Origin: Opitutia bacterium
Lineage (GTDB): Bacteria > Verrucomicrobiota > Verrucomicrobiia > Opitutales > Opitutaceae
DNA: 64,000 nucleotides
Assembly: GCA_016187945.1 (NCBI GenBank)
Contig: JACPIT010000005.1
Coordinates: forward strand, 806,001-870,000
Reading direction: 5' to 3'
Of the stretch, positions 7,422-10,210 are shown in pieces. The notes beneath the pieces are model-generated. The model was not told where the DNA came from and ran no database searches. It saw nothing but the letters and a program-made list of their open reading frames with translations. The stretch's first letter is position 1. Every line of letters starts with the position of its first letter. The position numbers and the translations under genes are program-made.

Positions 7422-7520
7422 GTAGGGCCGGTCTGTGACCGGCCAGAGGCGCGCGGCGGGTTTGTCGCCGCGCGCAAATTACGGCCGGTCTCGTTTGGGC
7501 CAGTCGGAGACTGGCCCTAC
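7422..7520. repeat. GTAGGGCCGGTCTGTGACC composite palindrome
   Basis: GTAGGGCCGGTCTGTGACCGGCC forms a hairpin at the left; the right end, read on the minus strand, is GTAGGGCCAGTCTCCGACTGG. The right GTAG starts one base after the stop codon of the GH94 gene. A partial copy (GTTCGGAGACCGGCCCTGCC) lies at 21303-21322, before rtcB. Confidence 0.88.
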
Positions 7521-7521
7521 T

Positions 7522-10011
7522 TCATCCGAGCGTTACTTGAACTTTGACGACCTTGCGGTCGCCGGTGGCGAGCGGGATCAGATTTCCGTCGACGGTCTTT
7601 CCATCGACGACGAGCGACTTCACGCCCTTCGAGACGCCGTTCGGGTTTTTGACTTCGATCTTGTAGGTCGTGCCGCGGAAGGCGCGCTCGACCGTGAAAC
7701 CGGGCCAATTCTTCGGGATGCACGGATCGATGCGCAGGCCGTCGAGTTCGGGGCGCACGCCGAGAATCCATTGCAGCGCGGTGTGGTGCGACCACGACGC
7801 GGTGCCCGAGAGCCACGGCACGCGCGACTTGCCGGCGTTGCGATTGCAGGTGGCGTAAGTTGTCTGGCAGTGAACGTAAGGCTCGATCTCGCGCAACTCG
7901 GCGCGGGTGTTGTAGGCCGCGGGCATGAACGAGCGGTAGTAGTCGTAGGCGAGATCGCCGTTGCCGAGCAGTGCTTCGGCGATGACGGCCCAGCTCTGCG
8001 TGTGGCAGAAGATGCCGGCGTTTTCCTTGATGCCGTGATTGTAGATGACGCCGCCCATGACGGTCGGCGGCGTGTGCGTGAACGGCGGCGCGCTGAGCAT
8101 GATGCCGTAGGGCGTCGCGAGTTCGCGCTTGAGGGCGTCCATGCAACTGCGGCCCTGCTCGGGCGTAGCGGCGCCGGACATGACGGCCCAGACCTGCGTG
8201 TTGATGTAGATGCGGCCTTCGGCCTCTGCTTTCGCGCCGTAGCGGTGGCCGTCCTGGCCGATGGCCCAGAGGAACCATTCGCCGTCCCACGCGGCTTTCT
8301 GGATGGCGGCTTCGAGCTTCGCGAGCTCGGCGCGCGCCCAGGCGGCTTCGGCAAGGTAGGGCGAGGCGTCCCCGCCGAGCCGTTGCGCGGCGGGGATGAC
8401 ATCGACGTTCGACGGCTCACCCGGAGGGTTCGCCCTACCGGCGGTTTCGCGTTCGGCCAGCTTCTCCGCGATCTGCGCGTAGGTCGCGAGGCCGAGGCGG
8501 ACTTGGAAGGCGACCATCACGGACTCGCCGTTGTAGCCCATCTTCACGCAGTCGTTCCAATCGGCGTGCAGGCCGCAGGGCAGGCCGTTCGCGCCGGAGC
8601 GCTCGAGGTTGAATTCCAGCGCGCGACGCAAGTGGTCGAGCACGATCGCTTCGCCTTGGTCGGCGTAGGGGAGGACTTTTTTATAGAAATCGAAATCGCC
8701 CGTCTCCGCGACGTAGTCGGGAATGGCGTTGAAGAACCACTGGCAATCGTCGGAGCGATACTCCTCGCGTTTCGGCGCGGGCATCTGGCCGGGCGTGTGG
8801 CTGAACGGCGCGACGACGGGCATGGCGCCGCCGTTCGAGACCTGGCCGGTGAGCATCAGCTCGAGGCGCTCGCGAATCTGGTCCTTCAGCATCGGCATCG
8901 CGCCGAGGAAATCCTGCACTGTGTCGCGGAAGCCGAGGCCGTCGCGCTCGCCGTTGTAGATGAGCGAGGCGTGACGCGACCACGTGTAGGTGATGAGCGC
9001 GTTGTAGGCGCCCCAGACGTTGGCCATCGAGTCGAACTCGGCGTCGGGCGTCTTCACCTTCACGCCGGCGAGCAAGCCGTGCCAGTGCGCGATGAGTTTC
9101 TGGAGTTCCGCTTCGCAACGCTCGGACGTGCCGAACTCGGCGCGGGCGGCGTAGCCGTGCGACTCGGGCGTGCCGAGGCCGAGCATCGCGATGAGTTCGC
9201 GCGTCTCGCCGGGCTGGAGTTCGATTTCAACCTGGAGCGTGCCGCAGGCGTTTTCGCCCTCGGCGAGGAAGTTCGAGCACTTGCCGTCGATCACGGCCTG
9301 CGGGTTCGCGTAGGTGTTGTAGCTCGAACCGAGGAAACGTTCGCGGACGGTCTCGTAACCGGCGAGCGGCGCGCCGACGAGTGCCATCCAGAGGCGGTGG
9401 CAGCCCATGAGATCCTTCTTCGGATCGAACGCGTGATACGGATGCACGGCCATGCCGAGCATCTCCTGCTCGACGGACGCCTTCGTGATGAACTGCGAAT
9501 ACTGGAGATTTGTCAGGTCGTTCGGCATGTGCCACGGGCTGGCCATCTCGCAGTAGGTGAAGACGGCGAGCTTGCGCGGCTGCTTCGATTTATTGGTGAC
9601 CTTGAGGCGCCAGTATTCGAAGGCCTGGCCGAGCGGGACGAAGTAAGTGCTCTCGGTCTCGATCGCGGAGTAGCGCGAAGTGATCGTGGTGTAGGCGGTG
9701 CCGTGGCGACAGGTGGATTTGTATTTCGCGAGCGGCTTGCCGACGGGCTGCCAGGACGACGACCAGTAGTCGCCGCTCTCCTGATCGCGCAGGTAGAAAT
9801 AGCGGCCGGGCTGGTCGAGCGGCACCGAGTTGGAGCGCATCCGCAGGAAGCGACTGCCGAGCGCGCTCTTGTAGAAAGAGTAGCCGCCGGCGTTGTTCGT
9901 GATGATCGCGCCGTAGTCGAGCGAGCCGAGGTAGTTGCTCCAAGGACGCGGCGTGTCGGGGCGCGTGATGACGTATTCGCGGGCTTTGTCGTCGAAATGA
10001 CCGTATTGCAT
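7522..10011 (-). CDS. GH94 cellobiose/cellodextrin-type phosphorylase with in-frame repeat insertion
   Basis: 829-residue cytoplasmic phosphorylase of family GH94, which splits a beta-1,4-glucosyl linkage with phosphate to give alpha-glucose 1-phosphate. It shows the N-terminal beta-sandwich opening GHFDDKAREYVITRPDTPRPW, the (alpha/alpha)6 barrel with WNGERDGLGFRDTVQD-like block (residues 350-375), the general-acid motif HADWNDC with Asp about 484, and the late GTASWSHH and HTQSW motifs that line the phosphate site. Residues about 525-552 (GRANPPGEPSNV...) are encoded by an 85-bp GTAG palindrome inserted without breaking frame between two helices, where homologues are continuous. Size otherwise fits cellobiose phosphorylase (about 800). 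Cellobiose or a mannosyl/glucosyl oligomer is likely; chitobiose is less likely. Confidence 0.93.
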   Translation of the reverse strand: MQYGHFDDKAREYVITRPDTPRPWSNYLGSLDYGAIITNNAGGYSFYKSALGSRFLRMRSNSVPLDQPGRYFYLRDQESGDYWSSSWQPVGKPLAKYKSTCRHGTAYTTITSRYSAIETESTYFVPLGQAFEYWRLKVTNKSKQPRKLAVFTYCEMASPWHMPNDLTNLQYSQFITKASVEQEMLGMAVHPYHAFDPKKDLMGCHRLWMALVGAPLAGYETVRERFLGSSYNTYANPQAVIDGKCSNFLAEGENACGTLQVEIELQPGETRELIAMLGLGTPESHGYAARAEFGTSERCEAELQKLIAHWHGLLAGVKVKTPDAEFDSMANVWGAYNALITYTWSRHASLIYNGERDGLGFRDTVQDFLGAMPMLKDQIRERLELMLTGQVSNGGAMPVVAPFSHTPGQMPAPKREEYRSDDCQWFFNAIPDYVAETGDFDFYKKVLPYADQGEAIVLDHLRRALEFNLERSGANGLPCGLHADWNDCVKMGYNGESVMVAFQVRLGLATYAQIAEKLAERETAGRANPPGEPSNVDVIPAAQRLGGDASPYLAEAAWARAELAKLEAAIQKAAWDGEWFLWAIGQDGHRYGAKAEAEGRIYINTQVWAVMSGAATPEQGRSCMDALKRELATPYGIMLSAPPFTHTPPTVMGGVIYNHGIKENAGIFCHTQSWAVIAEALLGNGDLAYDYYRSFMPAAYNTRAELREIEPYVHCQTTYATCNRNAGKSRVPWLSGTASWSHHTALQWILGVRPELDGLRIDPCIPKNWPGFTVERAFRGTTYKIEVKNPNGVSKGVKSLVVDGKTVDGNLIPLATGDRKVVKVQVTLG
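8355..8439. repeat. GTAG palindrome inserted in frame inside the GH94 gene
   Basis: Plus-strand GGTAGGGCGAGGCGTCC at 8355 and CCTCCGGGTGAGCC-side arm ending GTTCGCCCTACC at 8439 are inverted ends of one element; inner arms GAGCCGT and ACGGCTC also pair. It codes for about 28 residues of the phosphorylase on the minus strand and contains no stop in that frame. Confidence 0.85.
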
Positions 10012-10081: not shown

Positions 10082-10158
10082 AGGTGGAGCGCGTTGACCT
10101 CAACGCGCTTTCTGCGAGCGGGCCTCGAACAGCGCGTTGGGGTCAACGCGCTCCACCT
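10082..10158. repeat. paired hairpin repeat, GGTGGAGCGCGTTG family, copy 2
   Basis: Arms 10082-10109 and 10131-10158 are the same as those of the copy at 1628-1703; only the 21-base centre differs. It separates the GH94 gene from the symporter gene. Confidence 0.9.
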
Positions 10159-10210
10159 TTGCTGCCACGGGTTCTCTGCCGAAGCGTTCATCGAGTGCTG
10201 GAAGACGCGC

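Follow-up and report, generated by a model that had tools for sequence, protein, structure and literature searches.

A GTAG-tagged palindromic repeat in frame within a GH94 phosphorylase gene of an Opitutaceae bacterium, with candidate insertion sites shared with a related genus

In the genome of an Opitutia bacterium (family Opitutaceae), a palindromic repeat of 85 bp lies in frame inside a gene for a GH94, chitobiose/cellobiose phosphorylase-like enzyme (829 aa; positions 7522-10011, minus strand, of the 64,000-nucleotide stretch analysed here, hereafter the window). We read this repeat, with a probability of about 0.9, as a GTAG-tagged REPIN that was probably spread by a RAYT and is kept as a tolerated, functionless linker. 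The main new result, and the more open one, is that many of the insertion sites of such elements appear to be shared with a related genus.

The element (8355-8439, minus strand) is a head-to-head REP dimer translated as GRANPPGEPSNVDVIPAAQRLGGDASPYL, residues 525-553 of the protein. Read in gene direction it starts with GGTAGGGCGAACCC and ends with GCCTCGCCCTACC, its outer arms are inverted over 17 nt with 82% complementarity, and GTAG stands at both outer ends, as expected of GTAG REPs. In each arm, GTAG precedes a hairpin in which a GA/GA internal loop separates 3 bp from 4 inner bp, folding as GGC[GA]GGCG(TCCC)CGCC[GA]GCC in arm 1 (8356-8381, plus strand) and as GGC[GA]ACCC(TCC)GGGT[GA]GCC in arm 2 (8414-8438, minus strand), with a spacer at 8382-8413 separating the two. 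Both arms are completely paired (7/7 pairs each), whereas their inner stems differ (GGCG/CGCC vs. ACCC/GGGT), and the predicted RNA fold of positions 8350-8445 has a z-score of -3.2 that was equalled by 1 of 200 shuffles. The first-pass annotation had described an 85-bp palindrome in frame at this position, and the arms, the fold, the stop-free reading frame on the minus strand and the GH94 domains all bear this description out. Its estimate of about 28 residues fits the palindrome, though the net gain relative to insert-free segments is 32 residues (76 vs. 44), i.e., 11 nt beyond the palindrome. Since 85 is not divisible by three, these 11 further nucleotides are required in GH94; palindrome and flanking extra codons (AERETA, 8440-8457, minus strand) together account for the net +96 nt, and this flank may represent a short, diverged target duplication. 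Target duplication as a general feature was rejected, GH94 being the only site to hint at one (the 11 nt) while SNF2 and PurL do not.

Other palindromes surround the gene. One that is also GTAG-tagged lies just past the GH94 stop (7422-7520), and the similarity of GTAG ends to nearby intergenic repeats, also proposed in the first-pass annotation, holds by eye for this one; its stem, of the GGCCGGTC/GACCGGCC type, differs by eye from that of the GH94 element, and we did not retain it as kin of the same family. In the intergenic region that separates GH94 from the next gene (around 10082-10160), an inverted pair, GGTGGAGCGCGTTGA / TCAACGCGCTCCACC, looks like another repeat.

The GH94 element belongs to a repeat family found throughout its source genome (G000). 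The half-site pattern matched 148 times in this genome and its reversed control 0 times, which rules out a chance palindrome or a chance likeness to repeats. One hundred of these 148 places were listed, all of them within the 89 elements identified across the loci examined (the 100 listed places, the DNA-match loci and the RAYT loci), and a DNA search with the GH94 element itself gave at least 59 matches at E ≤ 10 among the best 40 of 194 candidates scored, a count in which both arms of one element can each contribute. The GH94 copy has the arrangement that defines a REPIN, two inverted REPs forming one unit, as do 33 of the 89 elements. The lengths of these 33 are spread evenly across the three frames (12, 11 and 10), so that no frame bias of the elements themselves was found.

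Sequence variation within the family leaves the hairpin in place. Among 118 arms from the fetched parts of G000, 105 have a perfect 4-bp inner stem, of seven types, 81 of them GTCG/CGAC; the inner stem type of arm 1 occurs in 4 of the 118 arms, and that of arm 2 in one of them, with GTAGGGCGAACCCTCC half-sites listed in other genomes. Thirty arms depart from the majority stem, and 24 of them are fully paired, whereas the average for shuffled sets is 4.8 and the highest value 11. The loop length was fitted per arm and not refitted after shuffling, a choice that tilts the comparison towards the observed value, but the gap is wide. Because non-majority arms still pair, i.e., stem changes covary, the hairpin is retained as its letters change. 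Immediately outside the arms, A is enriched at positions -2 and -3 (47 and 40 of 118, for a background of 16.5%), and position -1 is almost always G (117 of 118); as an indication of target preference this is a weak lead only. Across 252 genomes of the bacterial family, at least one half-site match was found in 96 and ten or more in 29 (hand count), with 0 to 2 matches per genome for the reversed control, and abundance varied widely: 0 matches in G007, which is from the same genus as the source genome, 86 in G005, 228 in G243 and 20 in G015.

Insertion into genes is a recurrent property of these elements. To count as in frame in a gene under a fixed ORF test, an element had to be flanked on either side by 150 aa or more and by codon-position G+C typical of genes. 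This applied to 17 of the 89 elements, among them 9 of the 33 paired ones; the rest are intergenic, close to gene ends, or undecided. Hosts supported by Pfam include UvrA, Mfd and a HrpA-like helicase (two sites each), PurL, an SNF2 helicase, a Mur ligase, an FMN dehydrogenase, an AcrB-type transporter, a U32 peptidase and a radical-SAM (RlmN-like) protein; the second HrpA-like site does not reach the 150-aa flank requirement, and a SpoU methylase copy was placed in its gene by laxer inspection. The domain match spans the element in the FMN dehydrogenase, the transporter, the U32 peptidase and the SpoU methylase, and one further ORF with an element (L009) gave no Pfam match. We presume the identities of UvrA, Mfd, HrpA, RlmN, MetH, RecF, MnmG and DinG, here and below, from their domains or from a look at the sequences. 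Elsewhere in G000 (L264, C9:655142), a GTAG arm lies near a short partial GH95 match, in a gene that may be broken.

The GH94 ORF carries both PF17167 (E-value 2.1e-119) and PF06165 (E-value 1.5e-78), its predicted fold matches PDB 8bou with a TM-score of 0.91, and PDB relatives align on either side of the element. Among the 45 GH94-like segments (DWND to WDG) from loci fitting the DWND..WDG motif, 43 are without insert and keep 43-44 residues, which rules out a conserved GH94 segment; the two with an insert are G000 (76 residues) and G015 (72 residues), and the insert of the latter differs. One of the closest insert-free genes, from G022 (L107), is 90% identical across the alignment. In an AlphaFold model built from 41 sequences (mean pLDDT 88.9), pLDDT drops below 50 over three or more residues only at 61-64 and at 527-547, the latter located between helices 498-526 and 551-573, so that most of the insert is predicted to form a low-confidence, floppy loop between two helices. 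We infer that the enzyme is produced in active form and that the insert is neutral, most likely without function in the enzyme.

The source genome also encodes a candidate mobiliser. A profile search yielded eight Y1_Tnp matches in G000, including a RAYT-like gene (L036) with a modest score (26.2 bits, for a cut-off of 23), a MPDHLHML motif, and a tyrosine in KTEYIRMNP. Arms of the GH94-element family are found at both of its ends (1327, plus strand, and 1874, minus strand), with the open frame (1309-1881) entering both, and by its sequence this locus is a REP-RAYT-REP unit, i.e., a RAYT flanked by the same REPs. This arrangement suggests that L036 moves the GH94-type REPIN; an alternative mobiliser is conceivable because G000 has seven further Y1_Tnp matches, and one of these genes could play this role. 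For comparison, TnpAREP of E. coli is described as cutting at a CT beside the REP, with cutting and joining shown in vitro for other TnpAREP (PMC8266576). Two other RAYT-like genes on contig C15 of G000 have different palindromes downstream of their Y1_Tnp ORF, TAGGAGCGGCTTTACGCCGCGA... and its inverse at L034 and GGTCAGAGACCGGCGCTAC at L033, and because these palindromes adjoin RAYT-like genes, G000 may hold several RAYT/REP pairs.

Under the reading favoured here, a non-autonomous REPIN, in which two REP hairpins stand in inverted orientation and GTAG marks both outer ends, would be spread by a RAYT (HUH/Y1 transposase) of the same genome. One copy would have entered the GH94 gene with the frame preserved, in a reading frame that avoids the TAG contained in the terminal GTAG, and selection would let the insert stay if the loop between the two helices tolerates about 30 extra residues. 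The first-pass annotation had proposed a mobile element able to make new protein segments, and had named homologue alignment, a genome-wide search and a structure model as ways to check it. All three came out in its favour, with insert-free homologues, other copies of the repeat, and a predicted loop position, and the high copy number and the in-frame location of the element agree with it as well. Movement itself we infer from copy number, empty sites, and the REP-flanked RAYT-like gene, and mobility is on this basis probable.

The positions of these in-gene elements largely coincide with insertions in the corresponding proteins of G015, which we take to be Opitutus terrae PB90-1. Starting from 19 G000 sites, those in an RND transporter and in RsmB/F fell outside the G015 query, leaving 17, and those in L009 (glycosidase-like), the FMN dehydrogenase and a GH78 protein had no usable G015 orthologue, leaving 14 junctions in 11 proteins (7,002 aligned residues). 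For 13 of the 14, G015 has a net insertion of at least 8 aa no more than 10 aa away, compared to a mean of 0.88 when junctions were placed at random, and this number was reached in 0 of 20,000 draws; the single non-shared junction is in a DUF255 protein. Conversely, 13 of the 16 net G015 insertions of this size are at G000 sites. When judged by eye, the inserts of the two genomes at shared sites mostly look unlike, and a relationship is possible at Mfd site 2 and UvrA site 1.

In GH94, the G015 insert is another palindrome (TGGAG...CTCCA) at the same place. It resembles the G000 element in being head-to-head and in many copies, with at least 62 matches at 41 places, its own included (hand count among the best 40 of 186 candidates scored), and it represents another family because both its stem and its end tag differ. 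Nine other G015 inserts were searched against their own genome, UvrA site 2, the Mur ligase, DUF255 and U32 being left out and GH94 treated separately. Those in SNF2, PurL, HrpA site 1 and UvrA site 1 had other matches, partly via simple CTCAACTC-like tandem repeats, while no other match was found for those in Mfd (both sites), SpoU, RlmN and HrpA site 2 among the best 40 of 574 candidates scored. Linkers like SQLSTLNSQLS are encoded by CTCAACTCTCAA-like tandem repeats in G015 (L285, L281 and L279) and in UvrA of G000 (L008), so that simple repeats also occupy these loops.

Alternative explanations were weighed for the GH94 insert itself and for the sharing of sites. Homologue loops can differ in length generally, and the 29 residues could in principle be an ordinary variable GH94 loop with a chance likeness to repeats, but the constant length of 43 of the 45 segments and the genome-wide copies, with none in the control, leave this idea with almost no credibility. 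For the sharing of sites, we give about even odds to a turnover in which a few loops of core proteins are reused, a filled loop being a safe target, and in which repeat families replace or nest within one another while the site stays. The near-complete overlap with G015, far above random expectation, is as this turnover would predict, as is the separate, multicopy repeat in the GH94 loop of G015. Ten further genomes were compared, with not every site found in each, and some of their loops point the same way. Eight of 11 relatives have a PurL loop that is longer by at least 7 residues, and the sequences of these loops do not look alike (the other three being +1 in G007, +1 in G004 and +3 in G016); at the SNF2 site long inserts are found only in G000 (the element) and G015 (+52), with small gains in the other nine (+10 in G022, +4 to +6 in eight). 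Against the turnover stand the five of nine G015 inserts without other match among the best candidates scored in their genome, the fact that the unrelatedness of the inserts was judged by eye while G015 itself has GTAG half-site matches, and the sites of a third genus (G014, 5 in-gene sites out of 42 elements). Four of these five, in RecF, MetH and MnmG (twice), had no comparable insert in an alignment of G015, G016, G000 and G032 (the search also covered G007 and G001), and the fifth, in DinG, is a variable loop. Because the G014 sites are not shared, site sharing is not a general rule, and it may reflect the pair formed by G000 and O. terrae, or a heavy repeat load in the latter. In G015 MetH (L417), a linker ...SQLSALGSQLSAL... 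precedes the position of the G014 GTAG element by about 75 residues, and the MnmG gene of G014 (L405) contains two GTAG dimers, one of them beside an FHVEQ-coding sequence that is present twice.

A single old insertion per site, present in the ancestor of both genera and since diverged past recognition without any reuse, seems to us the less probable account. It is favoured at HrpA-like site 1, where arms of the family with up to 2 mismatches occur in G001 and G003 and where the residues of G007 resemble a decayed copy (a DNA search found no match there), and this insert looks old in the genus; in this fuzzy family test, 6 of 300 background pieces also scored 2 mismatches, from a pool that included L345, itself scoring 2. 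In contrast, at the RlmN-like site G000 and G005 hold a GTAG element that G001, G007 and G004 lack (-1), the SNF2 site is unfilled in each of the four genomes compared from the same genus, and the G015 GH94 insert retains stems and ends characteristic of a different family, all of which speaks against an ancestral insertion. The GTAG element in SpoU is found in G000, G001 and G005. For GH94, the tree groups G000 with the insert-free G022 (support 0.904), again at odds with one old insertion, but the informative sites split almost equally between two pairings (55 for G000+G015 and 58 for G000+G022, as against 30 for G015+G022), and the flank following the insert reads YLAEAAWAR in both G000 and G015 and GLPEEAAWAR in G022. 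The tree thus does not decide between one and two GH94 insertions, and the shared flank speaks for one old insertion. Since site states vary across relatives, reuse and old inserts both seem to occur. That a small set of core-protein loops acts in this lineage as lasting landing sites, in which unrelated repeats enter, decay and are replaced, with the linker position inherited and its sequence species-specific, is accordingly a tentative proposal to which we attach slightly less than even odds.

Insertions of this type have precedents. The first-pass annotation knew of no report in this group, which does not hold: intragenic GTAG REPs were described in several species, foremost in O. terrae, where both uvrA genes are hit twice (Di Nocera et al. 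2013, PMC3733652). The GTAG REP superfamily has 24 family consensus sequences in print. Intragenic GTAG REPs are hence already known in the Opitutus group, and the GH94 element is ordinary for its bacterial family: it shares with the O. terrae repeats the GTAG tag, the head-to-head dimers and the RAYT association, and the two genomes also have in common inserts of 20-30 aa inside genes and a uvrA with two inserts (PMC3733652). The present case differs in coming from another genus, and neither the GH94 site nor site sharing was found in the available text of that paper; more broadly, our literature search found no statement on site sharing in Opitutaceae. The Pseudomonas REPIN/RAYT system is likewise based on a RAYT-linked inverted REP doublet, but the analyses in the available text of PMC3116915 concern extragenic space. 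Rickettsia RPEs, named in PMC3733652 as comparable in kind to intragenic GTAG REPs, are palindromes inside ORFs as well, a likeness in the manner of insertion only, and no GTAG or RAYT link was found in the available text of PMC3767692.

Reuse of individual positions has been discussed for such repeats, with different REPs at about the same recB site in two Xanthomonas species (PMC3733652), and, in orthologous Rickettsia genes, RPEs of different groups at or close to a single locus, for which both hot spots and a common origin were named and the authors conclude in favour of the latter (PMC3767692). The Opitutaceae sites bear on this question, i.e., hot spots for inserts of different origin vs. 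one diverged insert, in that empty, GTAG-filled and otherwise filled alleles of one position within the same genus would provide a test of it. In addition, these natural pairs with and without the element would allow the effect of a 30-residue insert on an enzyme to be assayed.
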